In this document: in pieces, positions 1,844 through 16,098 of the stretch
Numbering within the stretch: position 1 is the stretch's first letter
Layout of the letters: every line of letters starts with the position of its first letter
Virus record (IMG/VR): IMGVR_UViG_3300025276_000198
Coordinates: 1 to 25,508 of that record
Source: a virus
Direction: 5' to 3' (one strand)
DNA length: 25,508 nucleotides
Made by a program: the position numbers and the translations under genes
The notes under the pieces: model-generated
Seen by the model: only the letters and a program-made list of their open reading frames with translations
Databases searched by the model: none
What the model was told of the DNA's origin: nothing

Positions 1844-1845
1844 GA

Positions 1846-2744: not shown

Positions 2745-3111
2745 ATGGGATGTATTTTATTACAGGATAACCTTCATTCATTGTTAACCATGCGTATTCT
2801 GCTTCCACTACAGGTTTGTGTTCATCTTCTAATAAACTATCAAACTCTATGAATTGCTTTAAGATGTATGGATTATAGAAGGCCCTTTTCATTTCACCAT
2901 CAAAGTCAAGACAGACATTACCTACGAATTGTCCACGAACAAATGCATGGACATTCTTTTGTTTTGTACGTAACACACGTAACCTACCACCGTTTTGTAC
3001 TACAAATTTAGCTTTGTAGATTACTACGTTATCGTTGTGGTATTTTACTTTACCCTTCTGCTTAATGGAGAAGAGTTTCTTTCTTAGATTATAATATACT
3101 TCTGAGATCAT
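2689..3111 (-). CDS. Hypothetical phage protein with KNVHAFVRG motif
   Basis: A 140-aa basic protein. An N-terminal beta-rich half contains KLFSIKQKGKV, AKFVVQNGGR and KNVHAFVRGQFVG, followed by FYNPYILKQFIEFDS and a tail resembling domain edges (VVEAEYAWLTMNEG). The VRxxGRxxVLRxKxKNVHAFVRG pattern is one I associate with a widespread uncharacterised phage family; that is recall, not a search. Start ATG 3111 follows GGGGAAGAGTT (AAGAG). The C-terminus overlaps the downstream gene. Function unknown. Confidence 0.72.
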   Translation of the reverse strand: MISEVYYNLRKKLFSIKQKGKVKYHNDNVVIYKAKFVVQNGGRLRVLRTKQKNVHAFVRGQFVGNVCLDFDGEMKRAFYNPYILKQFIEFDSLLEDEHKPVVEAEYAWLTMNEGYPVIKYIPYESKAHDKTSSTHLNNDR

Positions 3112-3129
3112 AACTCTTCCCCTTTAAGG

Positions 3130-3375
3130 TTAGTCTTCTTCTTCTGAAAAGAACCCATGTTCAATTCCGAATTTAGCATATAGACATTCTATTCCTTCAA
3201 AGATTTCTTGATCAGAGTAATCTTCGTTGCTAAGCATGTCTATCTCGTATTGTTCGTCTGTGCCTATCCACATAGTTATGTTGAATAATTCATCTACTCG
3301 TCTGAAGGTATCTTCTTTCATTTTTGCACCATCAAGACCGATTGGTTTTAATTTGAATGGGAGTATATCAGCCAT
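3130..3375 (-). CDS. Hypothetical acidic 81-aa phage protein
   Basis: Acidic, soluble small protein ending HGFFSEEED. It has no motif I can name. ATG 3375 (MADILPFKL) is preferred: GGTGA lies about 8 bases upstream, and the ATGGCTGA junction overlaps the upstream stop by 8 bases. A GTG at 3387 in the same frame would add four residues. Part of the leftward operon. Confidence 0.68.
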   Translation of the reverse strand: MADILPFKLKPIGLDGAKMKEDTFRRVDELFNITMWIGTDEQYEIDMLSNEDYSDQEIFEGIECLYAKFGIEHGFFSEEED

Positions 3376-3553
3376 CTGGTTGTTCACCAGTGTCCTCTGC
3401 GTTATTGTCCATACAGTCGTGCATATCTCTGAGTGTGTGACCTAGGTCTGTGAACAGTACCTCTGCTTCTACACGTGATAGTATCAATGCTCTTTCCATA
3501 ATTTCTATAACCACTTCCCCTTCTGCTGTCCAAAAGATATTTGCTTTATCCAA
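3368..3553 (-). CDS. Hypothetical 61-aa protein with a TTG start
   Basis: Small acidic protein with a helical middle (IMERALILSRVEAEVLF). The only sensible start is TTG 3551-3553, supported by AGGAG nine bases upstream; an internal ATG would leave out the conserved-looking N-terminal FWTAEGEVVIEI segment. It lies 12 bases after the preceding gene and overlaps the next by 8. Function unknown. Confidence 0.65.
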   Translation of the reverse strand: MDKANIFWTAEGEVVIEIMERALILSRVEAEVLFTDLGHTLRDMHDCMDNNAEDTGEQPDG

Positions 3554-3565
3554 TTTCTAATTCTC

Positions 3566-3781
3566 CTATTTGTTGAAGCCACGTACTTTGATAACTTTAC
3601 GAATACGATCTATTGTAGATTCTGATAGTTTAGAACGGGACACAAACTGACCTGTCTCAACATCACGAGCTACTGAGAGGTAACCTTGGTGACCTGAGAA
3701 TGAACCTACTGGCTTACCATAACGTTTTGTTACACGACGAAATTGCAAGTTGTTACGACCGATTGGATTTACTGTTGTCAT
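3566..3781 (-). CDS. Hypothetical small basic protein, first gene of the 3781-230 operon
   Basis: A 71-aa strongly basic protein (RNNLQFRRVTKRYGKP near the N-terminus; IDRIRKVIKVRGFNK at the C-terminus). The charge suggests nucleic-acid contact, but no DNA-binding fold is recognisable. GAAAGG lies eight bases upstream of ATG 3781. It is the first gene leftward of the large non-coding structured region, so its transcript would carry whatever control that region provides. Confidence 0.72.
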   Translation of the reverse strand: MTTVNPIGRNNLQFRRVTKRYGKPVGSFSGHQGYLSVARDVETGQFVSRSKLSESTIDRIRKVIKVRGFNK

Positions 3782-3928
3782 TGTTATAGCCTTTCATGAC
3801 TAATTTTAGTTAAGTTGTTTTTCTGGTAGTTGCAACCGTAATGTAACCAACTATCCACACACCGAATAAAATAGATATTTTTAAATGCCTCTTGTTTGAA
3901 AAGTCTTGTCGGACCATCCAAAAATCAC

Positions 3929-4055
3929 AGTGACCCCTAAGGGTCACTAAGGATTCCTGGAGGAATCCTAAACGAGATCCATTAGGATCTCTTAGGAATC
4001 TTTAAAACCTCTGGGTTTTAGAGACTCCTATTAAAAACAGCATCCCGTAAGGGAT
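3929..4055. other. Run of five consecutive tetraloop hairpins
   Basis: Five inverted repeats follow one another, all with 4-base loops: 3929-3936/3941-3948 (8 bp, loop CTAA); 3950-3957/3962-3969 (8 bp, TGGA); 3974-3980/3985-3991 (7 bp, ATTA); 4003-4009/4014-4020 (7 bp, TCTG), extendable to about 16 positions out to 3994/4029; 4042-4046/4051-4055 (5 bp, GTAA, a GNRA-type loop on the + strand). No T tract follows any of them, so they are not ordinary terminators. No gene is seen. The region lies inside the leftward block. Structured RNA or an origin-type DNA element are both possible. Confidence 0.8.
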
Positions 4056-4074
4056 TCTATTTAAAAATTATGAA

Positions 4075-4271
4075 CCCTGACTGGAGATCACCGCGCAACT
4101 TTAAGGGTCACTAAATCTCAACAGTCAGGGGTACAAGGACTTCAACGAGAACTTCAGCAAGGAGTTCGGATCGGAGTCACTTGTATTAGTTGTCCCAACC
4201 GGAGCTTGAGCTTGAAAGGATTAAAGAACCCAAACTCAACAGTTGGAACAGACAACACATCTTAGTGTTGT
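4075..4271. other. Large folded non-coding domain with alternative helices
   Basis: A 9-bp helix 4075-4083/4122-4130 encloses a 5-bp helix 4084-4088/4115-4119. Next, 4189-4199 pairs with 4242-4246 plus 4251-4256 (11 bp with a 4-base bulge). Finally ACAACAC 4252-4258 pairs with 4265-4271 (7 bp). The last two share bases 4252-4256, so only one can form at a time. The 13-mer TAAGGGTCACTAA occurs at 3938-3950 and 4102-4114, so the 5' arm of the first hairpin in the array could pair with either copy. No ATG-initiated frame with a ribosome binding site is seen. Confidence 0.6.
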
Positions 4272-4275
4272 ATTA

Positions 4276-4385
4276 GAATTATGTAAGCAGTTTCTCTGAG
4301 ATGCTTAGCTCGCCTTCTTAGTCTGCATTGTGCTGATACCTGACGTATCCCACACTCCCAGCAGGAGGAATTATGTAAGTAGTTT
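4276..4385 (+). repeat. 18-bp direct repeat, one copy with a Shine-Dalgarno and start-stop
   Basis: GAATTATGTAAGYAGTTT occurs at 4276-4293 and 4368-4385 with one difference. The second copy is preceded by a perfect AGGAGG (4363-4368), four bases before ATG TAA (4373-4378), that is a start codon followed at once by a stop. The first copy keeps ATG TAA but lacks the Shine-Dalgarno. May be chance or a ribosome-binding minimal ORF. Confidence 0.5.
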
Positions 4386-4475
4386 ATACACATACTTAGG
4401 TGTTTTGATAATCTTAATTAGCTATCTTTATGATTATAAGCAAATATCCAGTTATGGACAGGGATTATCTTTTTA

Positions 4476-4498
4476 AATCCGGCCCCTGTGGTCGGATT
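4476..4498. repeat. Constant-loop hairpin, copy 1
   Basis: AATCCG (4476-4481) pairs with CGGATT (4493-4498) around the 11-base loop GCCCCTGTGGT. The same loop core, CCCCTGTGG, sits in equal-sized hairpins at 5237-5259 and 8006-8028 whose stems differ but still pair. It lies between the structured domain and the ssDNA-binding gene. A frame at 4430-4639 crosses it, but has no ribosome binding site. Confidence 0.75.
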
Positions 4499-4670
4499 CC
4501 TTGGAGTTATGCATCTGGAATTGAATTAGGATTCATCGGGTCTATAGTTTCGACAGCGATTGATTCCTGTGGAGCTAAGTGGATGATTACATCAGATGTA
4601 ACCTCCACCGCTGCGATACTAAACACCATAACTAAATAGAGATTAGCACATGCTAGTAAGAAAACTGACA

Positions 4671-5192
4671 TTAGAACATTGCCTCTAAGTCTTCATCTTT
4701 CTCACCAGAAACAGTAGGTGACATTTCACCAAGCACATCAAAGTCGATGTCACTGCCGCTGTATTCAATAAGCTCAGTCACTTGTACAGCTGTGAGAGAA
4801 TTGAATATTGATTCGTTATTGTCACCATAAGGCGCTTGCCATACGATAACATTAACTGTTGAACCATTGCCAATGATTTTAGCGTCCATTGGTTGCTTAT
4901 CACTACCAACTACACGAGGCTTACCATTGTCGCTGCCATCTGCTTTTAGAGCACGGCGTCGAATGGTTAAGCTAGACACACCGTCTTTGTTCTCTTTCAC
5001 AGGCAGATGGTTATCTTTCCATAGCTGTAGAGTGGCTGCGTCTTTAGCTCGTAGCTGAATTTCAAACTGCAATGGTGTAGTGAAAGGCCGACCATTGACT
5101 GTGCCTTTACCAATCTGAGGTGTTTCCAGCTTAGGGTAATAGGCTTCGGCGTTAGTGATCATGAAGTTCCGTGGTTTAGCAAGAGTAATCAT
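4671..5192 (-). CDS. Phage single-stranded DNA-binding protein (gp2.5-like)
   Basis: Probably coats ssDNA during phage replication and recombination and contacts the replisome through its acidic tail. The 173-aa protein looks like an OB-fold protein of the T7 gp2.5 type: a beta-rich body with PFTTPLQFEIQL, a basic SLTIRRRALK segment, MDAKIIGNGSTVNVIVWQAPY (20 residues or fewer per strand) and GVS/LTAVQVTELIEY. It ends with the acidic tail EKDEDLEAMF, with an aromatic last residue as in gp2.5. AAAGGA lies seven bases before ATG 5192. It is the main replication gene visible here; a polymerase and helicase must lie elsewhere. Confidence 0.8.
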   Translation of the reverse strand: MITLAKPRNFMITNAEAYYPKLETPQIGKGTVNGRPFTTPLQFEIQLRAKDAATLQLWKDNHLPVKENKDGVSSLTIRRRALKADGSDNGKPRVVGSDKQPMDAKIIGNGSTVNVIVWQAPYGDNNESIFNSLTAVQVTELIEYSGSDIDFDVLGEMSPTVSGEKDEDLEAMF

Positions 5193-5236
5193 TATATTTC
5201 CTTTACGTGGGTTATGAGAGAGTATCCCTCTTTTTA

Positions 5237-5259
5237 AATTGACCCCCTGTGGGTCGATT
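5237..5259. repeat. Constant-loop hairpin, copy 3 (between small membrane gene and SSB)
   Basis: AATTGA (5237-5242) pairs with TCGATT (5254-5259), one wobble, around the loop CCCCCTGTGGG, whose outer bases can also pair. It lies 4 bases past the stop of the 57-aa gene and 44 bases upstream of the SSB start, so a leftward transcript would carry it in the intercistronic leader. Confidence 0.75.
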
Positions 5260-5263
5260 ACTT

Positions 5264-5437
5264 TTAGTGGCAGGGGAATGACATAGCGTGTCTTTGGTCG
5301 TGCGCTGCATCATGTACACTAGTTGATTGTAAGAATCCTGAGATGGATACTAGAATAACTCCCAAAGATAACAGCATCAGTACTACCGATATGCTTTTCT
5401 GAATGGGAGCTGAGATTGTTCTGCTAGTCAACATCAT
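5264..5437 (-). CDS. 57-aa single-pass membrane protein
   Basis: The frame runs from ATG 5437 to TAA 5264-5266. It starts MMLTSRTISAPIQKS, has one hydrophobic helix (about 17-36, VVLMLLSLGVILVSISGF) and a His-rich polar tail (VHDAAHDQRHAMSFPCH). The basic N-terminus and polar tail suggest N-in, C-out. It overlaps the end of the upstream 35-aa membrane gene by 14 bases, with only a weak GGTGG upstream, so coupled translation is likely. A holin-like or envelope role is possible but unproven. Confidence 0.55.
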   Translation of the reverse strand: MMLTSRTISAPIQKSISVVLMLLSLGVILVSISGFLQSTSVHDAAHDQRHAMSFPCH

Positions 5438-5531
5438 AGTCCACCATTACTTTGTACCAGCTATGGGCGTACCATACCAGACATGCAATGGTTACAACTA
5501 GTAACACAACTGCTATTACATTAGTCAACAT
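5424..5531 (-). CDS. 35-aa single-pass membrane protein
   Basis: ATG 5531 is preceded by AAAGGAG with good spacing. The product begins MLTNVIAVVLLVVTIACLVW, one transmembrane helix, and ends YKVMVDYDVD. The strong ribosome binding site and overlap with the next membrane ORF make it a credible micro-gene. The pair of adjacent membrane peptides could be lysis or superinfection-exclusion factors; nothing in sequence decides. Confidence 0.6.
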   Translation of the reverse strand: MLTNVIAVVLLVVTIACLVWYAHSWYKVMVDYDVD

Positions 5532-5599
5532 TAGTTTCTCCTTTGTTACATCTATAGGTTAGAGGGATCTCTTAGTGAAATCCCTCAGATCTATGTATG

Positions 5600-5716
5600 T
5601 TAATCTTTGAAGTACCCTAGTACCTCTTCGACATAGTGAGTTGCTGTGGCTTTATCCATAGCTGGGTATTTGCGCATAGTTGTTTCTATGGCTTTGTGTT
5701 TTGTTATCTGTTGCAT
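5600..5716 (-). CDS. 38-aa hypothetical protein
   Basis: ATG 5716 overlaps the end of the upstream 78-aa gene by 13 bases and has AAGGA eight bases upstream, within that gene's coding sequence. The product is a small helical, mildly basic peptide (KHKAIETTMRKYPAMDKATA, then HYVEEVLGYFKD). Downstream, before the 35-aa gene, GAGGGAT pairs with ATCCCTC (around 5560-5590) as a weak hairpin. Function unknown. Confidence 0.55.
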   Translation of the reverse strand: MQQITKHKAIETTMRKYPAMDKATATHYVEEVLGYFKD

Positions 5717-5940
5717 TTAAATGATCCTTCCAATGCATAGTTGTTAGCCCTAGACAGTAGGGATATGAGTTTAGTTATAGTGAGTCCACGATGAACATCT
5801 TCTGGCTCTTGGTAGAGTTGTGAAGAGAACGGTGTTATATCACCTTCTGGGTTTATAAGAGCACATTCGACTCTTTTATTACCATCTTGAATGATGGATA
5901 CCTCGTACCCACCATCCAGTCCTATTCTTACTGATGCCAT
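5704..5940 (-). CDS. Hypothetical 78-aa phage protein
   Basis: Small protein with a beta-rich start (ASVRIGLDGGYEVSIIQDG) and a helical end (TKLISLLSRANNYALEG). ATG 5940 lies 13 bases inside the end of the upstream gene, so expression is probably coupled. No motif recognised. Confidence 0.68.
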   Translation of the reverse strand: MASVRIGLDGGYEVSIIQDGNKRVECALINPEGDITPFSSQLYQEPEDVHRGLTITKLISLLSRANNYALEGSFKCNR

Positions 5941-6410
5941 AGATCAGCCTCCTCTAAAGCTGTATCATCTGCGTAGTTACCACTGCCATGTTTATCCAAC
6001 AGCTCAATCTCAGCGTATTCTTTAGAATATTCTACTCTGAACGCAACGTATTCTTCAGCAGACTCTACTTCTTCTTCGGTCCAGTTATCACCGCCATCCA
6101 GATCTTCAGTTAAGACGTTTAGAATTTCTCTGACTGTCCACTTAGACCTATAAGATAGTTCTCCTAACGTTAGATCAGGTGAGTTATCAAACAATTCTAG
6201 GACTTGAGACTTATCCCAACGCTTAGGTTTACCAACAGTAATTTTCATCAATTCCTCCTCTTTGATTGTTACTTTAAATATTTGAGCTATGTCATCATCC
6301 ATAGACTCTGTTAGTATTGCTAGACACTCTACGTATGTTCCTGTATAGAAGAGCTGATTTTCTTTGTACAGCTCATGGAATGTTTCACGTACTATTTCGT
6401 TATCGGCCAT
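5928..6410 (-). CDS. Hypothetical 160-aa protein with a helix-turn-helix-like core and internal start
   Basis: Two parts are visible. Residues 1-54 form an acidic helical section. Residues 55-160 begin MKITVGKPKRWDKSQVLELF and include DLTLGELSYRSKWTVREIL (about 79-97), a plausible helix-turn-helix, then an acidic Glu-rich tail. Codon 55 is ATG 6248, preceded by a perfect AGGAGG with a 5-base spacer, so a 106-aa form may be made from inside the same frame. This looks like two formerly separate genes joined in frame, or one gene with a nested product. The main start ATG 6410 uses the repeated leader. DNA binding is inference. Confidence 0.68.
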   Translation of the reverse strand: MADNEIVRETFHELYKENQLFYTGTYVECLAILTESMDDDIAQIFKVTIKEEELMKITVGKPKRWDKSQVLELFDNSPDLTLGELSYRSKWTVREILNVLTEDLDGGDNWTEEEVESAEEYVAFRVEYSKEYAEIELLDKHGSGNYADDTALEEADLWHQ

Positions 6411-6485
6411 TGTATATCCTTTCTAGATATAGGTTAAGTGTTTATGAAACAGCAACCATTACGATTGCTGAAGCAAAAAGACTTA
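6411..6485 (-). promoter_or_regulatory. Repeated 5' leader, full copy A
   Basis: Read leftward it holds two hairpins. CAGCAATC pairs with GGTTGCTG around GTAAT (8 bp, one wobble). TATATC pairs with GATATA around TAGAAAG, placing the AGAAAGGA ribosome binding site in the loop and 3' arm just before ATG 6410. Nearly identical copies precede the genes starting at 6812 and 7264, with short copies before 7681 and 7848. Confidence 0.85.
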
Positions 6486-6812
6486 TTAATCTCTAATAAT
6501 TGTTTCTTTTACATCGAGTTTGATTTCGACACAGTTAGATACAGCTAACCTGAAGACCGTTGGTTGTGCTTCTGAATCACGATAATTCCAGCGGATAGAT
6601 TGCAGGTGAGCGTATGCTGATTTTGCACTGGCAAATGATTTGCACTCTTTTTCACTGAACAACATTGCTGTAATAGCATAATCATCTGGCATGGGATTAG
6701 GGAAGGTCAAAGGAAGTTCTTTCCTCCCAGTGTCTTCATCAATGGTAAATGGCACTTTCACAATGTATAGGTATGTTGTGAGGTCTTTGAATGTGATTTT
6801 ATTAGTAGTCAT
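6486..6812 (-). CDS. Hypothetical 108-aa phage protein
   Basis: Soluble protein of mixed character: MTTNKITFKDLTTYLYIVKV, a Pro-rich loop (LPLTFPNPMPDDY), a helix with FASAKSAYAHLQSIRWNYRD, and a beta-like end (FRLAVSNCVEIKLDVKETI). No motif recognised. ATG 6812 is served by its own copy of the repeated leader. Its stop falls right next to the following leader copy. The cassette arrangement suggests an accessory early gene. Confidence 0.7.
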   Translation of the reverse strand: MTTNKITFKDLTTYLYIVKVPFTIDEDTGRKELPLTFPNPMPDDYAITAMLFSEKECKSFASAKSAYAHLQSIRWNYRDSEAQPTVFRLAVSNCVEIKLDVKETIIRD

Positions 6813-6892
6813 AATATATCCTTTCTAGATATAGGTTGGGTTAAGTGTTTATGAAACAGCAACCATTACGATTGCTGAAGCAAAAAGACTTA
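6813..6892 (-). promoter_or_regulatory. Repeated 5' leader, full copy B
   Basis: Same two hairpins as copy A, with a 4-5 base insertion (GGTTGGGTTAAG instead of GGTTAAG). Its far end supplies the TAA stop (6890-6892) of the gene upstream in the transcript. Bases 6893 to about 6920 look like the start of another, diverged copy lying inside that gene's last codons. Confidence 0.85.
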
Positions 6893-7264
6893 AGTGTTTA
6901 TGGAAGAGCAACCATCGTCACCTGTTTCAATATAGTATCCGGTGTGATACCATTTGGGTGACACTCGCTTGACCACTGATAGGTAATAATCCCTGATGGA
7001 TTGCTCCTCGCCTGCATCGTCTGGCAATTCATTTACCCACTTGGTGACAGTAATCACTTCTTGTGGAAACTCTTTGTTTAACAGGTCGTTGTCCTCCATG
7101 AGCAATGCGGCTACGAATGCCATTGCGTCCTGTGGACGATCCAAGTCCTCAACTTGGTAGTAGTTACCACCCTTGAACTTCCAATATGCGTTACCGTTTG
7201 CGAACTTTCCGTCTTTAGAATGTGCGCCGTAGTTCTCTAAAGTCTGCGTAGTTACTATAAACAT
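6890..7264 (-). CDS. Hypothetical 124-aa phage protein (MFIVTTQTLENYGAH type)
   Basis: Begins MFIVTTQTLENYGAHSKDGK and continues with NAYWKFKGGNYYQV, a pattern I recall from uncharacterised phage proteins. Acidic middle (EEQSIRDYYLSVVKRVSPKW) and a C-terminus YYIETGDDGCSSINT. The last codons and stop lie in sequence resembling the repeated leader, so the repeat seems to have moulded the gene's end. It has its own full leader. Function unknown. Confidence 0.7.
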   Translation of the reverse strand: MFIVTTQTLENYGAHSKDGKFANGNAYWKFKGGNYYQVEDLDRPQDAMAFVAALLMEDNDLLNKEFPQEVITVTKWVNELPDDAGEEQSIRDYYLSVVKRVSPKWYHTGYYIETGDDGCSSINT

Positions 7265-7339
7265 AATATATCCTTTCTAGATATAGGTTAAGTGTTTATG
7301 AAACAGCAACCATTACGATTGCTGAAGCAAAAAGACTTA
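7265..7339 (-). promoter_or_regulatory. Repeated 5' leader, full copy C
   Basis: Practically identical to copy A, with both hairpins intact. The end of the repeat (actta, 7335-7339) supplies the TAA stop of the gene upstream in the transcript, showing that the repeat unit spans from a stop codon to the next start codon. Confidence 0.85.
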
Positions 7340-7681
7340 GTTGAAGAGTGAGATTTGTCTTGGATCTTGTGCAAGGTCACTAGGTTCCAAGTCAAATTCA
7401 GAATAGAAATCTTGGAATCTGCCCTCTCCGTTATCAGCTTTAGTTACCGCATCGTTGAAATAGGTAATGTCAAGAGCTTCATAGGCGTAATCTGGGCATA
7501 CACGAGATAGTTCAACTATTCGTATTAGTTCGCTCTTTGAGCAAGTTAGAAAGAAATCACCTAAAGCATCTGCTTTGGGATTGTTGATCCACACATCGTT
7601 GCCAAGTTTGTCACCTGCCTCAAGTATGGCTAGACGCTTAGCAGCACGAAGGATGATCTTATCTGACGTTGGGAATTTCAT
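7337..7681 (-). CDS. Hypothetical 114-aa acidic phage protein
   Basis: Soluble, largely helical protein: MKFPTSDKIILRAAKRLAIL, a Cys-containing helix (FFLTCSKSELIRIVELSRVC) and an acidic end with FQDFYSEFDLEPSDLAQDP. ATG 7681 is chosen, five codons inside a longer frame that opens with TTG in the leader, because GAAAGGATATACC before ATG matches the leader used by the neighbours. Not recognised. Confidence 0.7.
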   Translation of the reverse strand: MKFPTSDKIILRAAKRLAILEAGDKLGNDVWINNPKADALGDFFLTCSKSELIRIVELSRVCPDYAYEALDITYFNDAVTKADNGEGRFQDFYSEFDLEPSDLAQDPRQISLFN

Positions 7682-7709
7682 GGTATATCCTTTCAAGATA
7701 TAGTTTAAG
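7682..7709 (-). promoter_or_regulatory. Short copy D of the repeated leader
   Basis: Keeps only the start-proximal hairpin: CTATATC, loop TTGAAAG, GATATACC, then ATG. The stem is identical to the full copies while one loop base differs (A to T). The distal hairpin is missing. The TAA of the upstream gene (7705-7707) lies in this copy. Confidence 0.75.
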
Positions 7710-7848
7710 AATTGAAGTCGTAGAAGTCACCCTCTATGGGTGTGCCGCACTCAAAGTGTGTACGCCAGTTGGTATTATGGTTGAGATTAGCGCAGCATAG
7801 CCAATCGTTATAAGCTTGCTCCGAAGCTTCATTCTTTGTCATAAGCAT
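7705..7848 (-). CDS. 47-aa hypothetical protein, first leftward gene after the control region
   Basis: Starts MLMTKNEASEQAYNDWLCCA and ends GTPIEGDFYDFNS, with three Cys and one His. ATG 7848 follows short leader copy E. A longer frame reaches 7998, but its upstream part is a low-complexity Leu/Pro/Ser translation of the T-free tract and is not credible. The gene is closest to the leftward promoter-like element at 8220-8239, so it may be expressed first. Confidence 0.62.
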   Translation of the reverse strand: MLMTKNEASEQAYNDWLCCANLNHNTNWRTHFECGTPIEGDFYDFNS

Positions 7849-7876
7849 GGTATATCCTTTCAAGATATAGGTTGGT
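7849..7876 (-). promoter_or_regulatory. Short copy E of the repeated leader
   Basis: Carries the start-proximal hairpin with loop TTGAAAG and GATATACC directly before ATG 7848, like copy D. Beyond it the sequence leaves the repeat and enters CTTGTCGG and the T-free tract. Confidence 0.75.
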
Positions 7877-7890
7877 GCCTTGTCGGACTG

Positions 7891-7999
7891 ACCCACCCCC
7901 AGACCAACCCCAGAGAGAAGCGGAGCAGGCAGAGGGCGGAAGAGACAGAGAGGCAAGAGAGAAGGCAGAGAGGGCAGAGAGGGAAACCCCCACAACACC
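7891..7999. other. 109-nt tract without T on the + strand
   Basis: No T occurs from 7891 to 7999 in an otherwise AT-rich genome. The outer parts are C/A-rich and the centre (about 7911-7987) is almost pure G/A with imperfect GGCAGAGAGG units. A leftward transcript would have an A-free, C/U-rich leader here, about 220-330 nt after the proposed start at 8220. No gene is credible in it. Confidence 0.9.
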
Positions 8000-8005
8000 T
8001 CTGCA

Positions 8006-8028
8006 AATCAGGCCCCTGTGGACTGATT
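8006..8028. repeat. Constant-loop hairpin, copy 2
   Basis: AATCAG (8006-8011) pairs with CTGATT (8023-8028) around GCCCCTGTGGA. The stem differs from copies at 4476 and 5237, yet pairing and the 11-base loop length are kept. It stands in the untranslated region of the leftward transcript. Confidence 0.75.
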
Positions 8029-8115
8029 ACTTACTCTACAACCTAATGACATCTAGCATCTACAAGACCTAACAGACACCAAGAGAACACATAGCTTGGG
8101 TCTTATCTGATAGGT

Positions 8116-8516
8116 ACTGAGAGACACTGAGAGATACTGAGATAGAGCTGAGAGAGACTTAGAGAGTATAGATATATATAGTAACCTAATGGATAGGGGC
8201 AGGCTTGGATAGCTTCTCCCTATAAGGAACTTAGAGAATAGGATGTCATTGCCCCACAGTCTCTCGAAGTTCTCACAGTACATCGATCCTCCCGCTAGTG
8301 CCTATGCCACCAGAGAACCTCACAGAGCCATGATACCTCAGAGTACCTCACAGTACCTGAGAGAACCTTAGAGGCTATGAGAGACCCCTTGAGGGCTCTC
8401 AGAGACTCCCTGAAAGAAAGACAAGAAGATCTTGATCCCGACTAGGGATCTCTATAAAGATTGAATGATTGAGGTGGTGGTAGCTGAAAGAGTCTGATAA
8501 AGCTGAGAGAACCTGA
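8116..8516. repeat. 10-bp repeats in the divergent control region
   Basis: Three tandem units ACTGAGAGAC, ACTGAGAGAT, ACTGAGATAG run from 8116 to 8145. Four tandem units of the form NRNWACCTNA fill 8331-8370, with further GAGAACCTNA copies at 8313-8322 and 8507-8516. The 10-bp step would place each unit on the same face of the helix. The region lies between the divergent promoter-like elements and before terL, and has no credible gene. Iterons of an origin or packaging-site repeats are possible. Confidence 0.65.
8220..8239 (-). promoter_or_regulatory. Leftward T7-type promoter-like element (P1)
   Basis: Read leftward: ATTCTCTAAGTTCCTTATAG, continuing GGAGA. The TATA followed by GGGAGA is the same arrangement as around +1 in T7 promoters, giving a predicted start at 8220. 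It points at the leftward gene block. Two near-identical copies point rightward at 8680 and 10487. Confidence 0.7.
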
Positions 8517-8679
8517 GAGAGATTGAGGGGGTACCGTGAAATAAATGAGGGTACTGAATATAAAAACAATACTTACAGGCTCTCTCTAAGCCACTCAATG
8601 TACCTCAAAGCACCTAGGGGGTACTCCAATCTGTACAGATACACACAGAATCCTAAAATATACTACAATATAACTACAG

Positions 8680-8699
8680 ATTGTCTAAGTTCCTTATAG
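8680..8699 (+). promoter_or_regulatory. Rightward T7-type promoter-like element before terL (P2)
   Basis: ATTGTCTAAGTTCCTTATAG differs from P1 and P3 at one base. The predicted start G8699 is 18 bases upstream of the terL ATG, leaving a very short leader that contains the AGGGG ribosome binding site. It would drive packaging and virion genes. Confidence 0.7.
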
Positions 8700-8716
8700 A
8701 TATATAGGGGACACAG

Positions 8717-10369
8717 ATGAATAACAAGGAAGTTATGACTCTTCTTAAAGAAAAAGAGAAGAGGATCAAGCTAAAGGGGTATGAGAATGACTTTACTTCT
8801 TTCGCTCAAGAACAAATACAGATTATTACTAAGGATACGTCTAAAGGGTTCATACCTTTTGAATTTAACGAGTGTCAACTGCGTATTACAAAGGCTCTCA
8901 CAGAACAACAAGCGACTACAGGCATGGTTAGGGTTATTATCCTTAAGGCTAGGCAACAGGGCATCAGTACTTACTGTGCTGGGAGGGTATTTTGGAAGTC
9001 ATACTTCTCACCGCACTCTCGAAGCGTAGTTATGGCTCATGATTCTGCTACATCTGATGCATTATTTAGTATGTCTAAGAATTTAATACGTAATATGCAG
9101 GGGGATTTAGTCCCTAAGGAGATAACATCTAATGCTAAAGAAATTAAAATACAATCTCCAGCTTATAATGATAGAGATGCTATTGGCTCGTATCGTTTAT
9201 ATACAGCGGGTTCTCCGGAAGCTGGTCGTGGGACTACACCAACGATTGCTCACCTATCAGAAGTAGCATTTTGGACACATGATGAGAAGATTTTGGCCGG
9301 TCTGTTCCAGGGGATCTCCCAGGCACCAGGCACTGAGGTTATTTTGGAGTCTACAGCCAATGGTGCTCAAGGGGAGTTCTACAGGCTCTGGAAGGGGGCT
9401 GTTGCTGGGGAGAATGAATACCTACCAATCTTCCTACCTTGGTTTATAACCCCTGAATACAGGCGTACAGCACCTCTGGGTATGGAGTTGACAATAGAAG
9501 AGGAAACTCTAGTAGAAAACTATGAGTTAGACCAAGATCAACTGTATTGGCGTAGGTTGAAGATTGCAGAAGGTGGTAAGTTAAAGTTCCAACAAGAGTA
9601 TCCAGCTACAGCCGATGAGGCTTTCATTGTATCGGGTGCTAATGTCTTTGACATTGAGAGACTTAACTCTCTAGTGCCTAGGCCAGAGCAGAAGCGTAGT
9701 GATTGGGATCCAGCGAGTAAGATGTTTGATGATAATAGGGAAGGTAACTTGTCTATCTATGACTATCCTAAGTGGGAGGAGCCATATGTCATTGGGGCTG
9801 ATGTCTCTTTGGGGGTAGGTCAAGACTATAGTGCTGCTATCGTTATGAATAATAAATATGAAATTGTAGCAGTGTATCGTAACAACCGAATTGACCCAAG
9901 TATGTGGGGTGAGTTGTTATTCTACTTAGGTAGATACTATAACAATGCTTTCTTAGCAGTTGAATCCAACTCTATGGGTATTGCTACACTGCAGAAACTA
10001 GAACAGATGGGTTATCTTAACCTATACAAACAAACAAAGATGGCTAATGTGTCTAATGAAGAAGGGCTAAGGCTAGGGTTTAGAACAACCTCTGCATCTA
10101 AACCTGTAATCATAGGTAACCTAAAGAACCTGATTGATAATGAAGATATAATGATACCTTCACCTATTGTAATCAGGGAACTTAAAGACTACATATCTAC
10201 AGCTAGTGGTAAGACTGAGGCAGCTCCTGGCTGCTGTGACGATACTGTCATTGCTCTAGCTATATGTGCTGAGGTATTACGTACACATTGGGATCGTCTA
10301 AACACAAGGAATGTTTCATGGAAGGAGAGAATCTCGGATTGGGAACCGGACAATACTCAATGGATTTAG
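8717..10369 (+). CDS. terL: Terminase large subunit
   Basis: The DNA-packaging motor: the ATPase pumps DNA into the procapsid through the portal and the nuclease cuts the concatemer. The 550-aa protein has the expected order of motifs. KARQQGIST (77-85) is the Walker A variant; IAHLSEVAFW (about 167-176) is Walker B with catalytic Glu; ESTANG (211-216) is motif III. The RNase H-type nuclease has acidic residues in GADVSLGVGQDYS (D362), VESNSMG (E416) and CCDDTVIAL (D508/D509). ATG 8717 follows AGGGG. Length is typical. No small terminase gene is visible just upstream, where it would usually lie; that region is non-coding repeats. Confidence 0.95.
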   Translation: MNNKEVMTLLKEKEKRIKLKGYENDFTSFAQEQIQIITKDTSKGFIPFEFNECQLRITKALTEQQATTGMVRVIILKARQQGISTYCAGRVFWKSYFSPHSRSVVMAHDSATSDALFSMSKNLIRNMQGDLVPKEITSNAKEIKIQSPAYNDRDAIGSYRLYTAGSPEAGRGTTPTIAHLSEVAFWTHDEKILAGLFQGISQAPGTEVILESTANGAQGEFYRLWKGAVAGENEYLPIFLPWFITPEYRRTAPLGMELTIEEETLVENYELDQDQLYWRRLKIAEGGKLKFQQEYPATADEAFIVSGANVFDIERLNSLVPRPEQKRSDWDPASKMFDDNREGNLSIYDYPKWEEPYVIGADVSLGVGQDYSAAIVMNNKYEIVAVYRNNRIDPSMWGELLFYLGRYYNNAFLAVESNSMGIATLQKLEQMGYLNLYKQTKMANVSNEEGLRLGFRTTSASKPVIIGNLKNLIDNEDIMIPSPIVIRELKDYISTASGKTEAAPGCCDDTVIALAICAEVLRTHWDRLNTRNVSWKERISDWEPDNTQWI

Positions 10370-10485
10370 AAGAAGCTTTTTATAGTGCGGTGTTAGATTA
10401 TTGGGTTCAAGGTCGTGTCCCACATGAGATGGTCTACCTTAACCATGAAGATGAATTTCTTGAAGTATACTATGGATATGCATAA
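10318..10485 (+). CDS. Small hypothetical protein overlapping the terL end
   Basis: The distinctive part is LEEAFYSAVLDYWVQGRVP and the acidic end with EDEFLEVYYGYA, probably a small helical protein. Starts considered: ATG 10318 has AAGGA seven bases upstream and gives 55 aa; ATG 10360 gives 41 aa with only a 10-base terL overlap but a weak ribosome binding site. I use 10318, with low certainty. The stop is followed directly by promoter-like element P3. Function unknown. Confidence 0.55.
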   Translation: MEGENLGLGTGQYSMDLEEAFYSAVLDYWVQGRVPHEMVYLNHEDEFLEVYYGYA

Positions 10486-10486
10486 G

Positions 10487-10506
10487 ATTCTCTAAGTTCC
10501 TTATAG
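10487..10506 (+). promoter_or_regulatory. Rightward T7-type promoter-like element (P3)
   Basis: ATTCTCTAAGTTCCTTATAG, identical over 20 bases to P1, starts one base after the stop of the small gene at 10485. The predicted start is G10506. The copy also forms an 8-bp inverted repeat (ATTCTCTA with TAGAGAAT), but P2 does not, so the conserved feature is the linear sequence. Downstream, 10542-10548 pairs with 10561-10567 in the leader before the next gene. Confidence 0.7.
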
Positions 10507-10586
10507 AGAATAAGTATTCCTGCATTGTCCTCATAACGCGCTGGTGGTCGCGGCAGGTAAACCACCAACTAATTTAGGAGGTTAAA

Positions 10587-10754
10587 ATGGCTGCAGGAAT
10601 GAAGCACTACTATAAAAATGGTAAAGAGTGCAAAGGACCAACGCATAAAGATGCTAAGGGTAAGATGATGTCTGGTGCTAAGCACACGGCGAGTAGTAAA
10701 TTTCTATTTCACAAGAAGGATTTATCCCCCGCTGCAAAGAAGGTGGCAACATGA
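10587..10754 (+). CDS. 55-aa small basic phage protein
   Basis: Strong ribosome binding site AGGAGG seven bases before ATG 10587. The product is Lys- and His-rich: MAAGMKHYYKNGKECKGPTH, then KMMSGAKHTASSKFLFHKKD and an Ala/Lys tail. The pattern of a YKNGKxxxGPTH motif, then SGxxHTxxSKxLFH, is one I recall from small proteins in marine podovirus structural blocks. It may be a minor virion or DNA-associated protein. It overlaps the next micro-ORF as ATGA. Confidence 0.7.
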   Translation: MAAGMKHYYKNGKECKGPTHKDAKGKMMSGAKHTASSKFLFHKKDLSPAAKKVAT

Positions 10755-10825
10755 GAAGGTATTTGAAACGCATACTATGCGCAGTAATGAATCGTGAATG
10801 CCCTTGCACTAAGTGCGAGTGCTAA
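10751..10825 (+). CDS. 24-aa cysteine-rich micro-protein
   Basis: The ATG overlaps the upstream TGA (ATGA, 10751-10754). The product starts MRRYLKRILCAVMNR and ends ECPCTKCEC, giving a C-x-C-x2-C-x-C cluster that could bind a metal such as zinc. The precise overlap and dense Cys pattern favour a real gene, but its length leaves doubt. AAGAAGG about 14 bases upstream may help initiation. Confidence 0.5.
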   Translation: MRRYLKRILCAVMNRECPCTKCEC

Positions 10826-10833
10826 AGTAATCG

Positions 10834-11066
10834 TCTGGCACTAACGCAAAGTGCTACGCCAGAGGTCTCATGACCTCAGGTCTTTACGTTGTTTTGCAGA
10901 TGGAATTTCGCTACCGTGTAGTTTGGGTATCAACCAACTACAGCTGAACACTGGGCAGGCGTCAAATAGAGGCCCCCTCCCATATAAGAGGTGGGTCTCT
11001 ATTGTAAATTATAATAATCGGGCATAGTCCCAAGTTAGTTAGTTAGACCCACGGAGGGAACTATGC
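10834..11066 (+). promoter_or_regulatory. Structured leader with start-codon sequestering stem
   Basis: Successive hairpins: 10834-10839/10858-10863; GAGGTC/GACCTC (10862-10867/10872-10877, loop TCAT), which overlaps the first by two bases; a long stem 10965-10979/10988-11003 with at least 11 pairs; and GCATAGTCCC (11022-11031) with GGGAACTATGC (11056-11066), 10 bp with one bulged A. The last stem buries both the GGAGGG ribosome binding site and ATG 11063. No T tract follows the long stem, so RNA processing or translational control is likelier than termination. Confidence 0.6.
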
Positions 11067-11209
11067 GCTTTAATGAAACACAAGTTGAACCAAAGAAAGA
11101 ACCTAAACCTAGTAAGAAGAAAGCTGTTATCAAAGCTGGTAGTAAAGACTACGACTACGCAGAGTTAGCTAATACCAAGAAGATTCTTACAGGGAGGGGT
11201 TCATTATGA
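11063..11209 (+). CDS. 48-aa Lys-rich small protein before the portal
   Basis: ATG 11063 follows GGAGGGAACT. The product begins MRFNETQVEPKKEPKPSKKK, then AVIKAGSKDYDYAELANTKK and ends ILTGRGSL: a Pro/Lys-rich disordered start and a short tail. Its TGA overlaps the portal ATG as ATGA (11206-11209), so its translation probably feeds the portal gene. Both start signals lie in the 3' half of a stable stem. Function unknown. Confidence 0.65.
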   Translation: MRFNETQVEPKKEPKPSKKKAVIKAGSKDYDYAELANTKKILTGRGSL

Positions 11210-13365
11210 TGTCTGGTAATAAGTATAAAGAGAAAGTGTCTGATGACAGCCTGATCAATTTAATTGAGTCTGGTGTTATGAACTCTACAGGAGAATGGTT
11301 AAACTCCTCTGACATGACAAAGGAACGTCAACGATCCACATATGAATTTGCAGGTATTGCTGCAGATCACCTAGCACCTCAGGGTGTATCTAGTATTGTT
11401 GACACATCTACTACAGAAACTGTAGAAGCATACACTGCAATCTTGTCTGATCTGTTCCTAAACAACGGAAGATTGGCTAGATTTGTACCATATGACAACT
11501 CTCCTGGCTCTTTTAAGAGTGCTAAGGATGCCTCTATGATTACAAACTATGCTATCTTTAAGCAGAATAATGGCTGGGAAATTATCCAAACTTGGATAAA
11601 AAGTGCATTACTGTGGAAGAATGGTATCGTTCGGTGGGACTATGTAGAAGGTTACGACTACGAGTTTGAAGAATACGAAAAGATCTCTCAAGGCCAGTTG
11701 GATGTCCTCCTCGCTGAAGAAGGAGTTGAGATCATTGGTGACCTAAATTATGAAAATGAATTAGGTGAGTTGAACATGGAGACCGGACAGCAGGATGCTG
11801 AGTTGGTTTATGTGGATGTACGTATTCGCCGTAAGAATGATAACTCTCGTGTTAAGATTGAAAACATTCCACCAGAATCTTTCAGGATCTCTCGTGATTC
11901 TAAATCAATTGATGATGCTAATTTCGTAGGTATCCAAACAATACTAACTCGCTCAGAGATCCGTAAGATGTGGCCTGATGTTGCAGATAGTATTAATGAA
12001 GATGAATGGAATGATCTAGATGATTACACCTCTTGGGATGGTGGTGGTAGTTACTCTGAAGATATCGCAGCTCGTAAGCTAGTGACAGGTCAGAGTACTA
12101 TACAAGGTAGGATGAATGATGACATCACTGCACTTGAAGCTAATCGGGAAGTTACTATTACAGAGTGCTGGATCAACGTTGACCGTGATGGTGACGGGGT
12201 TGCTGAACTTAAACATTTCATAACAGTCGGTGATACAATACTGTATGAAAGTGATGTAGATATGATACCAATAGCTTGTCTATCACCTATTGATATCCCA
12301 TATGAGTTTTATGGTTTGTCTATAGCTGACTTCACAAGATCGTCCACACTCGCTGCCACAGCAATCCTTCGTGGGTTTGTTGAGAATACATACCTTACAA
12401 ACTACTCACCAAAGCTTGCCGATCCAAACGTTGTTGATTTCTCTGCTCTCCAAAACATGAGACCAAAACAAATCATCCCAACTAACGGTAACCCTAATGG
12501 TGCTGTAGCTGCAATGCCCCCAGAGGCAATCAGTTCAGGTACTGTCCCATTGCTTTCACACTTGCAAACAATCAAGGAACAAGCAACGGGTATGTCTAAG
12601 GCTGCGCAAGGTCTCAATGATTCCTTGTATGTGTCTGGTAATAGTGAATCAAAAGTAGCTGCAGTTCAGTCTGCATCTCAGAAACGTATTCAGCATATTG
12701 CTCGTAGGTTTGCAGAGACAGGTATGAAACGTCTGTGTGTAGGTGTCTATAAGACAATGCGTAAATCCTTGAAGACTCAATCTAAGTTTAGTTACCAAGG
12801 TGTGTTTTCTGATATTAACATTATGAACTTGCCATCACGTATGGATGTTGAAGTGTTTCTAGATATTGGTGAGAACTCAAACGCAAACACGATTAAGAAG
12901 TTAGAGATGGTTGGTAGTAAAGTACTCCCAGCTCTCAACAGTCAGGGTCAAGGTGTTGTAATCAGACCGGAAGCACCTGCTGTGTTAGCTACAAAAATAA
13001 TTGAGTCTATGGGTATTGATAGTCATGATTATCTTGAAGACTATACAACAGATGAGTTTAAACAAAAAGCAGTTGAAACTGTTACACAGCAATCTGAAAA
13101 AGCTCAGAAAGATGGTGAGATTACTCAGCGTAAGTTAGAAGCAGATACATCACTGGCAGAGGCCAATGTCGTATTTACTAATGCACAATCTAAAAACACT
13201 GTGGATGACAACACTAAACAGTTGGCTATCTCTATTGATAAGCACTTCCAACAGTGGGCAGAGATTGACATAAAAGCTCGTAAAGAGGGTCTTGAATCCC
13301 CACAACGGCCTGACTTTAATCAGATAACAGCCCTTGCAAGAAAAATGATTGCAGGTGAAGTATAA
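11206..13365 (+). CDS. Portal protein (P22-type)
   Basis: Forms the dodecameric ring at the capsid vertex through which DNA is packaged and ejected. At 719 aa it fits the large P22-type portal class. Supporting features: the N-terminal STYEFAGIAADHLAPQGVSS region, IIQTWIKSALLWKNGIVRWD, a VRIRRKNDNSRVKIENIPPE segment, INVDRDGDGVAEL (DRDGDG at 326-331), GMSKAAQGLNDSLY, and a long Gln/Lys/Glu-rich helical C-terminus (about 620-690) consistent with a barrel. Two consecutive ATGs (11206 and 11209) are possible starts; the first makes the ATGA overlap. It follows terL after small genes, as in many podoviruses. Confidence 0.9.
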   Translation: MMSGNKYKEKVSDDSLINLIESGVMNSTGEWLNSSDMTKERQRSTYEFAGIAADHLAPQGVSSIVDTSTTETVEAYTAILSDLFLNNGRLARFVPYDNSPGSFKSAKDASMITNYAIFKQNNGWEIIQTWIKSALLWKNGIVRWDYVEGYDYEFEEYEKISQGQLDVLLAEEGVEIIGDLNYENELGELNMETGQQDAELVYVDVRIRRKNDNSRVKIENIPPESFRISRDSKSIDDANFVGIQTILTRSEIRKMWPDVADSINEDEWNDLDDYTSWDGGGSYSEDIAARKLVTGQSTIQGRMNDDITALEANREVTITECWINVDRDGDGVAELKHFITVGDTILYESDVDMIPIACLSPIDIPYEFYGLSIADFTRSSTLAATAILRGFVENTYLTNYSPKLADPNVVDFSALQNMRPKQIIPTNGNPNGAVAAMPPEAISSGTVPLLSHLQTIKEQATGMSKAAQGLNDSLYVSGNSESKVAAVQSASQKRIQHIARRFAETGMKRLCVGVYKTMRKSLKTQSKFSYQGVFSDINIMNLPSRMDVEVFLDIGENSNANTIKKLEMVGSKVLPALNSQGQGVVIRPEAPAVLATKIIESMGIDSHDYLEDYTTDEFKQKAVETVTQQSEKAQKDGEITQRKLEADTSLAEANVVFTNAQSKNTVDDNTKQLAISIDKHFQQWAEIDIKARKEGLESPQRPDFNQITALARKMIAGEV

Positions 13366-13383
13366 ACCACAGGAGGTGGAGAA

Positions 13384-13806
13384 ATGTTTGGATTACCTTT
13401 AGAACTTATTACAATGCTTTTCTCCACCGTACTTGGCGGTGTCATGTCCATGTGGGGTCAAAGTACGAAGAATAAAGCTGAACAACAAAAGATGATGATT
13501 GGTGGTATGCAGCAGACGAGGGAGCATGGGCAGAAAGATGTTCACTTTGCGTGGACAAGAAGGCTCATAGCCCTTGCTGCTGTCTTCTCCATCATTGTGT
13601 TACCAAAAGCGGTAGCAGTCTTTTACCCAGAAGTTAATGTTATAGTAGGTTATACCGAAGTTCACGGTGGTATAATCAATTGGATATTTGGTGGTGATGG
13701 AACAGTGCAGTGGCAGTCAGCTACTGGATTTGTGATTACTCCGTTAGATACGCATATAGTATCAGCAATTGTTGGTCTATATTTTGGTGCGGGGTTTACT
13801 AAATGA
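13384..13806 (+). CDS. Phage membrane protein, holin-like candidate
   Basis: A 140-aa protein with hydrophobic segments near 4-24 (LPLELITMLFSTVLGGVMSM), 60-84 (RLIALAAVFSIIVLPKAVAV) and the C-terminus (THIVSAIVGLYFGAGF), separated by a Lys/Gln-rich cytoplasmic-type loop (GQSTKNKAEQQKMM). AGGAGGTGGAGAA before ATG 13384 is a strong ribosome binding site. The next gene begins in its stop (ATGA). Similar proteins lie in lysis or virion neighbourhoods of marine podoviruses; holin is one option, a virion membrane-channel protein another. Confidence 0.7.
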   Translation: MFGLPLELITMLFSTVLGGVMSMWGQSTKNKAEQQKMMIGGMQQTREHGQKDVHFAWTRRLIALAAVFSIIVLPKAVAVFYPEVNVIVGYTEVHGGIINWIFGGDGTVQWQSATGFVITPLDTHIVSAIVGLYFGAGFTK

Positions 13807-14075
13807 GTTCATCAGACAATCGGGATTTACTGAGTACTAAGGCTACTCAGATGTCTTTTCTTATTGGTGTGGTATTGCAGACAATTGCTTTGGTCTGGTA
13901 CGTATCATCTCTAGATAATAATGTACAAAACAACACGAGAGATATAGTGAGGCATGAGATCAGAATAAAGAATTTAGAAACTCTTGTCCACAACCAAGCC
14001 CTGATCTCTGCTAGGATAGATGAAAACATTAAGTCTATTCGTAAATCTGTAGAGAAAATGGCAAATGGTGATTAG
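13803..14075 (+). CDS. Small membrane protein with coiled coil, inner-spanin or holin candidate
   Basis: A 90-aa protein with one transmembrane helix at about 18-36 (SFLIGVVLQTIALVWYVSS) followed by a heptad-like polar helix (NNTRDIVRHEIRIKNLETLV, then ARIDENIKSIRKSVEKM). This is the plan of an inner-membrane spanin, though shorter than lambda Rz. It is followed, with an 11-base overlap, by a small lipoprotein, which strengthens the spanin-pair idea. The start overlaps the upstream stop as ATGA. Role is inference. Confidence 0.65.
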   Translation: MSSSDNRDLLSTKATQMSFLIGVVLQTIALVWYVSSLDNNVQNNTRDIVRHEIRIKNLETLVHNQALISARIDENIKSIRKSVEKMANGD

Positions 14076-14280
14076 GTTTATATTAACAGTTTTCCTCTGC
14101 AGTTGCACCACCGTTGTTATTGAATACCCCTCGGTCTGTCCAGATGGGCAACCTAAATGTCAGAGGAATTTGGATGCACAAACATTATCAATTATCGGAA
14201 AGGAGAAGGCTGCTCTTACACTTATGTGTATGGATCCCGATCTTAATAATCTATTGGACATCGATTGTCTACGCGAATGA
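14065..14280 (+). CDS. Small lipoprotein, outer-spanin candidate
   Basis: A 71-aa protein with a short signal sequence and lipobox-like end: MVIRFILTVFLCSC, then TTVVIEYPSVCPDGQPKCQR. Cys14 is the likely lipidated residue. The mature part keeps further cysteines (VCPDG, PKCQR, LMCMD, IDCLRE). It overlaps the preceding membrane/coiled-coil gene by 11 bases and the following secreted gene by about 107 bases in another frame. Lipoprotein plus TM-coiled-coil neighbour fits a two-component spanin that fuses inner and outer membranes in lysis, but it lacks the Pro-rich stretch of classic Rz1. Confidence 0.65.
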   Translation: MVIRFILTVFLCSCTTVVIEYPSVCPDGQPKCQRNLDAQTLSIIGKEKAALTLMCMDPDLNNLLDIDCLRE

Positions 14281-14953
14281 TGTTACCGGAGACTTTAGTA
14301 ATAACTATCAAGACTCCACAATAGATAGTAACAATGCTAGTTCTACAGCAACTAATAACTACAATGGTACAGGAGCAGGGAGTCCTGCCCCAGTTATGTC
14401 ATCAATAGCACCAACAGTTATGGGTGCTGGTGGTAATGATAGCTGTTTAATACCCACATCTGTAGGTATACAGCTAAGTATTATAGGTCTATCTAGTGGC
14501 GGAATGGCTCAAGATCCAAGCTGCAATCGAAGAAAAGATGCAAGGCTGCTAGGAACACCCCAACAAATAGGTGGGTTAGGCTTACAAGTCTCAGCAATTA
14601 GTGTTCTTTGTGACAGCCCTAAAGTCTTTAAGGCTATGATACTCGCGTCTACCCCATGCCCCATCTTAGATGTTGTTACAGGTAAACTGTTAATGGGTAA
14701 GAAAGCGATAGATAAATATAGAGATAGCCCTGTTGATTTTATAGTAGGGTATGAGAATAATAAAAGTTTTTGGGACAGCTTGTTAAGAATTGGAGAGGAT
14801 ATAACAGATGAGATCATTGAAGCAAAAGACACTAATAGCAGCGGGGACTCTCGCTCTGTTAGTGAGCGGTTCAGGAGTACTAGGGGCGGAAGCGTACAGT
14901 CAGACGGGACAACAGAAAATCACAGAACTGAAAGGAACGATAGACCTAATTAA
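14174..14953 (+). CDS. Secreted or exported phage protein with signal sequence
   Basis: From ATG 14174 (AGAGGAAT upstream) the protein is 259 aa. It has a basic start, a hydrophobic stretch (LLLHLCVWIPILIIYWTSIV) and a likely cleavage after YA before NDVTGDF. A Ser/Thr/Asn-rich linker (residues about 40-75) leads to a Cys-containing domain with SCLIPTSVGIQLSIIGLSSG, DPSCNRRKDARLL and ISVLCDSPKVFKAMI. This arrangement recurs in marine phage proteins of unknown role. Its last ~48 residues overlap the next gene and are low-complexity Ser/Arg, probably under weak constraint. Longer starts at 14114 lack a ribosome binding site. Confidence 0.65.
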   Translation: MHKHYQLSERRRLLLHLCVWIPILIIYWTSIVYANDVTGDFSNNYQDSTIDSNNASSTATNNYNGTGAGSPAPVMSSIAPTVMGAGGNDSCLIPTSVGIQLSIIGLSSGGMAQDPSCNRRKDARLLGTPQQIGGLGLQVSAISVLCDSPKVFKAMILASTPCPILDVVTGKLLMGKKAIDKYRDSPVDFIVGYENNKSFWDSLLRIGEDITDEIIEAKDTNSSGDSRSVSERFRSTRGGSVQSDGTTENHRTERNDRPN

Positions 14954-15638
14954 TAATAGGTTACTTGCATCTGGTCAACTAACTAATGGTGCTGTTGGCT
15001 ACGCTAAAGTGGGGCGTGTTGTCATTGACAATGCACTTGATGGAGGTAAGATTACAGCTGCTCAGTATGCAGCCTATAAAGTGTCTTTGGATAAAGTGGT
15101 AGCCCATGATTATGCTACTGCTACTAATGCTAAGCAGTTATTCACACAAGAGCACACAGCATCAATGAACCAACTTACATTGGCTGTTGACCTGCTAACC
15201 ACAGCTACTGGTCTATTGGCTACTGCAACATCTGTCTCCTCTATAGCAGCGGATGCTGACACAAAGCCTGAACAGGTTGCACTACAAGGTATGTTGAAAA
15301 CCGATAAGTACACTATTAGTGCTGCAGAGGTAGCAACATATAATACAGCAGTAACTAACGTAGAAGCGTACGCTCAACAAGCGGGTGCCTTCATGGCGGC
15401 TGCTAACAACAGCGAATTGACTAAAAGCATTGACGCATACACAGCAACAAACAACCTAGTCGCAGGACAGTACACAGCAGTGACATACACGCAAGCCGTT
15501 GATGAGTTTGTGATTACGTGGTCTGGGGCCGGTACAGGTTGGACAGGGTATCTGACCAATGACATGAAGGATGCAACTGCTATCTATGGGGCCAATACTT
15601 ACATACAACAGAATGGCACTCCTATAAAGGAAATGTAA
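14808..15638 (+). CDS. Hypothetical exported 276-aa protein
   Basis: Begins MRSLKQKTLIAAGTLALLVS with a signal peptide probably cleaved near VLGAEA. The mature protein is Ala/Thr-rich and mostly helical, with no Cys after the signal and no catalytic motif seen. GGAGAGG about nine bases before ATG 14808 supports the start even though it lies 146 bases inside the preceding gene. It could be a periplasmic or virion-associated protein; I do not recognise the family. Confidence 0.65.
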   Translation: MRSLKQKTLIAAGTLALLVSGSGVLGAEAYSQTGQQKITELKGTIDLINNRLLASGQLTNGAVGYAKVGRVVIDNALDGGKITAAQYAAYKVSLDKVVAHDYATATNAKQLFTQEHTASMNQLTLAVDLLTTATGLLATATSVSSIAADADTKPEQVALQGMLKTDKYTISAAEVATYNTAVTNVEAYAQQAGAFMAAANNSELTKSIDAYTATNNLVAGQYTAVTYTQAVDEFVITWSGAGTGWTGYLTNDMKDATAIYGANTYIQQNGTPIKEM

Positions 15639-15639
15639 T

Positions 15640-16089: not shown

Positions 16090-16098
16090 GGAGGTAGT

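Follow-up and report, generated by a model that had tools for sequence, protein, structure and literature searches.

The locus considered here lies in a viral sequence of 25,508 nucleotides (IMG/VR record IMGVR_UViG_3300025276_000198), the whole of which is hereafter called the window. Its genes form two blocks: the leftward one encodes a methyltransferase, MazG and a gp2.5-like single-stranded DNA binding protein (SSB), the rightward one the large terminase subunit (TerL), a SU10-type portal, a scaffold, a SU10-type capsid protein and an adaptor (Table 1); Rfam and tRNA scans of the window gave no match. The closest match to the window TerL among named phages is the terminase of Roseobacter phage CRP-7 (61.8% identical) and, judged by sequence, the window represents part of a CRP-7-like marine phage genome. 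A longer genome, G002 (57.4 kb, loci L103–L105), is 98.2% identical to the window across 89% of the latter, such that the two belong to the same species. G002 carries a 127-bp repeat at both ends, which was rejected as a genome end: it maps to an intergenic cassette of the early block (window 6403–7873), and the ends are therefore probably an assembly break at the repeat.

Within this same stretch (window 6403–7873) the leader AACCTATATCTAGAAAGGATATA, or a close version of it, occurs five times, each copy standing directly ahead of a start codon in a series of successive leftward genes. Three of the five belong to a repeated intergenic cassette of 78 nt, in which CAGCAA/TTGCTG may form a hairpin; the copies may represent gene cassettes that were duplicated, or a translation leader common to these genes. 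A repeat of 40 nt (family D8), GC-rich and hairpin-like in its middle part, also occurs in the leftward block, at window positions 4468–4507, 5229–5268 and 7998–8037, with a terminator-like call on the copy at 5237–5259.

Table 1. Genes and predicted promoters of the locus, and predicted promoter motifs of the ten lineages (window positions unless a locus is named).
Feature	Position	Strand	Remarks
MazG-like pyrophosphatase, P1 block	1529–1900	−	PF03819 E 8e-10; phrog_229 E 2.5e-37
gp2.5-like single-stranded DNA binding protein, P1 block	4671–5192	−	phrog_112 E 2e-9
P1, predicted promoter, leftward	8220–8239	−	exact match; predicted +1 at 8220; transcript start GGGAGAAG
P2, predicted promoter, rightward	8680–8699	+	exact match; predicted +1 at 8699
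Large terminase subunit, first gene behind P2	8717–10369	+	phrog_2 terminase large subunit E 2e-29; PF17289
P3, predicted promoter, rightward	10487–10506	+	exact match; predicted +1 at 10506
Portal protein (SU10 type), first large gene behind P3	11206–13365	+	PF23899 SU10_portal E 5e-128
Major capsid protein (SU10 type), P3 block	18429–19499	+	PF17236 SU10_MCP E 2e-74
130-aa gene behind P5	L103:7038–7430	−	its end = window 1–93 (+)
Lineage A (window lineage) motif			ATTSTCTAAGTTCCTTATAG
Lineage B motif			GTATCCGTCCCTTATAG
Lineage C motif			TATACTCTCCTTATAG; five sites in G016 and G018
Lineage D motif			TGWTGTAACCCTTATGG; four sites in G006, at the P1–P4 positions
Lineage E motif			ATCTTTTAAGTACCTTATAG; G029, G031
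Lineage F motif			TTTATAGTACCTTATAG; G008
Lineage G motif			TTTAAATGTCYCCTTAAAG; G007 and many fragments
Lineage H motif			CACTTGGTCCCCTATAG; G011
Lineage I motif			TCTCGGTAGTCTCTATAG; G023
Lineage J (CRP-7) motif			TATAGTCCYYTATTAAAAGG; five predicted sites, near 2.0, 7.1, 14.8, 38.3 and 57.2 kb of MK613349, one about 10 bp before own RNAP gene

The preliminary description of this DNA reported three copies of a T7-like 20-mer, ATTSTCTAAGTTCCTTATAG, differing at a single variable base. All three are present where it placed them (P1–P3), with 0 mismatches and with the variable base as described, and the window holds no further such site at up to 3 mismatches. By chance 0.02 copies would be expected (from shuffles), and three copies occurred in no shuffle; a literature search for a 13–16-mer of the motif returned no paper. 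The continuation of P1 as TATA-GGGAGA, part of the same description, is borne out by the sequence, P2 and P3 continue as TATAG-ATATATAGGGG and TATAG-AGAATA, and a G stands at +1 after every copy. The copies had moreover been said to lie in non-coding gaps and to point into the gene blocks that they would transcribe. Their directions are indeed such: P1 faces the leftward block of DNA metabolism (the last gene of which, in whole relatives, is that of the RNA polymerase), P2 faces terL and ends 18 bases ahead of the start codon at 8717, and P3, between terL and the portal gene, faces the portal/scaffold/capsid block. The placement in gaps stands too, with the qualification that P1 overlaps a mechanical 76-aa ORF (8053–8283, −); this ORF is not called in G003 or G005, and P1 is therefore very probably non-coding.

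Imperfect CTGAGAGA/CTCAGAGT-like repeats crowd the gap between P1 and P2 (window 8080–8530). Within it, two short stretches are kept between relatives, GGGGGGTAC...AGGGTAC and TC.CGCTA...CTATG, and are possibly a host promoter or an origin.

Close relatives of the window, that is TerL loci at about 89–100% identity, counted where their sequence reaches the site in question, retain P1 in 34 of 34 cases, P2 in 35 of 35 (at most 1 mismatch) and P3 in 31 of 31. Homozygosity of the motif is 0.97–0.99, against 0.47–0.59 at −35 to −21 (0.99 and 0.47, respectively, for P1), and in an alignment of the P1–P2 gap the sites are among the few invariant blocks. The substitutions tolerated in the motif are few: C/T at −14, T/C at −8 and T/A at −2. 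A 19-mer scan of 2.9 million viral_contigs returned 90 stretches; among the 80 of these that were listed, 69 further loci were examined, and all 69 align to the window lineage.

With a weight matrix, exactly five sites at 28–45 bits are found in each of G002, G003, G004, G005 and G032, the next best reaching 7 bits or less; as these sites and related ones had served to train the matrix, it is the gap between the five sites and the rest that is informative. The set of five includes two sites outside the window, P4, which lies 60 bases before a ribonucleotide reductase gene, and P5, which lies 73–75 bases before a lone rightward 130-aa gene within the leftward block, both of them remote from terL and among ordinary genes. 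This 130-aa gene has no match in Pfam or PHROG, and that it might encode the small terminase subunit is a guess. Across families A, C, D, E, I and J, a co-directional gene lies ahead of the site at 49 of the 49 sites tested.

A single-subunit phage RNA polymerase with its own specificity, encoded outside the window, had been predicted from the motif, with a search of the rest of the genome and of its relatives for both as the check. Such a gene does exist: G002 and the near-complete relatives G003–G006 encode a PF00940 protein, as do G007, G008, G010 and, in part, G011, and the motif occurs in five copies per complete genome of the window lineage. The G002 protein, of 764 aa, matches PF00940 at E about 2.5e-54 to 4e-54 (185 bits against a curated cut-off of 22), and its best PHROG is the RNA polymerase family phrog_414 (E 5e-99; N4-like family E 1.6e-26). 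A phmmer search matches it to T7 RNAP at E 1.6e-27, the two being 23.5% identical in alignment. Motifs A, B and C are found in 33 of 33 aligned sequences, T7 included, with the T7 residues D537, K631, Y639 and D812 conserved throughout, and the C-terminus is of the SDYFF type, i.e. the C-terminal foot is present. An AlphaFold2 model of the protein (pLDDT 85, pTM 0.82) has T7 RNAP as its best solved structure by E-value (3e2e, E 8e-28), with a TM of 0.73 by query length to the T7 RNAP–promoter complex 1cez; in this model, strands 629–639 and 649–661 form a hairpin equivalent to the T7 specificity loop. By family, residues and fold, therefore, the G002 protein is a T7-type single-subunit RNA polymerase. 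In relatives its gene stands behind P1 in the leftward block, such that the enzyme would amplify its own gene.

Relatives with TerL identity below about 80% are without the 20-mer. CRP-7 has no site for the window motif at up to 3 mismatches and G006 has one degenerate match only, and repeated intergenic motifs were therefore searched for instead, as repeats common to the regions up- and downstream of terL and then as repeated intergenic 16-mers, with no core demanded. More distant relatives proved to carry other repeated motifs, in the same places where this could be tested, making ten promoter types in all (Table 1); for lineage J the alignment and start base were chosen among near-equal options. 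Seven further relatives have an RNAP or TerL of these families; six of them (G012, G020, G021, G024, G025 and G026) yielded no repeated motif or none that convinced, and the seventh, G017, a single site.

The promoter consensus sequences of T7, T3, SP6 and K11 provide the comparison for the core of these motifs. The window promoters read CCTTA, not CACTA, at −7 to −3. C(−7), T(−4) and A(−3) are found in ten of ten lineages and in T7/T3/SP6/K11 alike, and the predicted G(+1) in nine of ten, while A(−6) occurs in none of the ten and C(−5) in three. Anchored at the start, identity between lineages is 82% over −7 to +1 and 29% over −17 to −8. At P4 the predicted transcript, GGGGGGUCUAAGGAUCCCCC, forms a hairpin whose 5′ arm runs from +1, the G032 version being GGGAGGUC/GAUCUCCC, where paired changes keep the pairing; at P5 the hairpin starts at +2 in most genomes. 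T7 phi10 mRNA also starts with a hairpin. The positions of the P4 and P5 hairpins, as predicted from sequence, fit a start at the predicted base.

The 20-mers very probably serve as promoters for a T7-type single-subunit RNA polymerase that the phage itself encodes. Against this reading stand the core, which departs at −6 and usually at −5 from that of T7/T3/SP6/K11, the seven relatives above that gave no usable motif set, and the weak correlation of promoter with specificity loop described below. In such a scheme −7 to +1 (CCTTATA, then G) would be a general melting and start element, and −17 to −8 (TCTCTAAGTT) would be read by the specificity loop, the β-hairpin at about residues 629–661 of the 764-aa enzyme. 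The leftward block would be transcribed first, by the host RNA polymerase; no clear host promoter was found, and a sigma-70 scan of window positions 1–20000 gave no excess, with 46 sites found against 48.2 expected from shuffles. The phage enzyme would then use P1 for the leftward block, its own gene included in relatives, P2 for terL, P3 for portal and capsid, P4 for ribonucleotide reductase along with more of the structural genes, and P5 for the lone 130-aa gene. Related phages would keep this layout but combine a diverged enzyme with another recognition sequence. Binding of the enzyme to the sites, the exact start base, the order of early and late transcription, and the reading of promoters exclusively within each lineage are what we infer.

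Sites that lie upstream of gene blocks and are weakly palindromic (CTAAG...CTTATAG), as these are, might instead be operators at which a transcription factor, of phage or host origin, acts on the host RNA polymerase, and not promoters themselves. Such a role is highly unlikely, since the direction of the site follows the transcribed gene at every site tested, C(−7), T(−4) and A(−3) are common to ten lineages and to T7-type promoters, the P4 and P5 hairpins begin at the predicted start base (+1/+2), and sigma-70-like sites are not enriched in the portion scanned. The strand of every site, following as it does the gene behind it, also speaks against signals for replication or packaging (origin or terminase recognition repeats), as does the distance of P4 and P5 from terL; although P1 and P2 flank the CTGAGAGA-like-repeat-rich gap adjoining terL, we regard this function as extremely improbable.

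The genome does contain other duplicated intergenic cassettes, and the copies might be the product of chance, or a small functionless element that is mobile or was duplicated. This is scarcely credible in view of the near-uniformity of the motif beside its variable adjoining upstream bases, the constancy of the places of the sites in relatives whose TerL identity falls to about 89%, and the replacement, in distant relatives, of all copies in concert by another sequence.

If the 20-mers are, as we favour, promoters of the phage polymerase, their type might be expected to match the specificity loop of the enzyme. Across eight lineages (for B and H a full polymerase sequence is absent from the comparison set), similarity of promoter and of specificity loop gave a Mantel r of 0.32 with p 0.06, which is too weak for us to claim proven polymerase–promoter co-divergence. 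Lineages E and F are alike in loop (0.81) as well as in promoter (0.71), but A and E have most of the −14 to −8 letters in common although their loops are only 20% identical. A match of promoter type to specificity loop is in this respect only suggestive at the level of sequence. For the CRP-7-like marine phages as a whole we nevertheless lean, on balance, towards at least ten diverged polymerase–promoter pairs, in which −17 to −8 would have been exchanged in concert at every site of a genome, with the layout and the CCTTATAG-type core unaltered; such pairs, possibly mutually orthogonal, would reveal the way in which a phage shifts its whole promoter set to another specificity.

In ten lineages, promoters have thus been predicted by comparative genomics alone, and a CACTA-based search would miss their core. 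Polymerase–promoter co-divergence is now directly testable in a natural series of candidate matched pairs, which are also candidate enzyme–promoter pairs for biotechnology. In this regard, promoter prediction is the reported limiting step for new phage RNA polymerases, having failed in 18 of 44 enzyme families (PMC11475235).

Within its own group, the window lineage has its terminase, portal and polymerase families in common with CRP-7 (MK613349), the motif of which differs from that of the window. CRP-7, which infects an RCA host, was the one cultured member of the group to be found. The CRP-7 RNAP, gp30, was already annotated, at less than 25% identity to Autographivirinae enzymes, in a paper whose main text is without the word ‘promoter’ and which describes this marine phage group as abundant and widespread (PMC6918029). 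The CRP-7 record has no assignment below Caudoviricetes, and the window phage is not filed as a member of the Autographiviridae, the T7-like structural gene module and family gene order of which are absent here, portal, capsid and adaptor matching SU10 families instead.

Like the T7/T3/SP6/K11 systems, those described here have directional sites of about 18–20 bp with a conserved core and a variable −17 to −8, the letters C(−7), T(−4), A(−3) and, mostly, A(−1) and G(+1), and PF00940 polymerases in which the catalytic residues are shared and a specificity hairpin is present. They differ from these systems (Autographiviridae) in having five sites per genome together with SU10-type capsid, portal and adaptor, and in their polymerases, which are 22–26% identical to that of T7 and about 697–820 aa long against 883 for T7. 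EM1 RNAP, a metagenomic single-subunit phage enzyme with 26% identity to T7, is a similar known case, its promoter having been found in silico and then shown to be active (PMC9596486); that promoter, TCAGAAGTCACACTATAA, comes from a different phage and retains the CACTATA core (PMC9596486). Phage single-subunit polymerases with promoters of their own are, in other words, known. What departs from them is the core, CCTTATAG here (no A(−6), mostly T(−5)) as against the CACTATAG of T7/T3/SP6/K11, which has been taken as general, its CACTA being assumed in a recent promoter search (PMC13029058).
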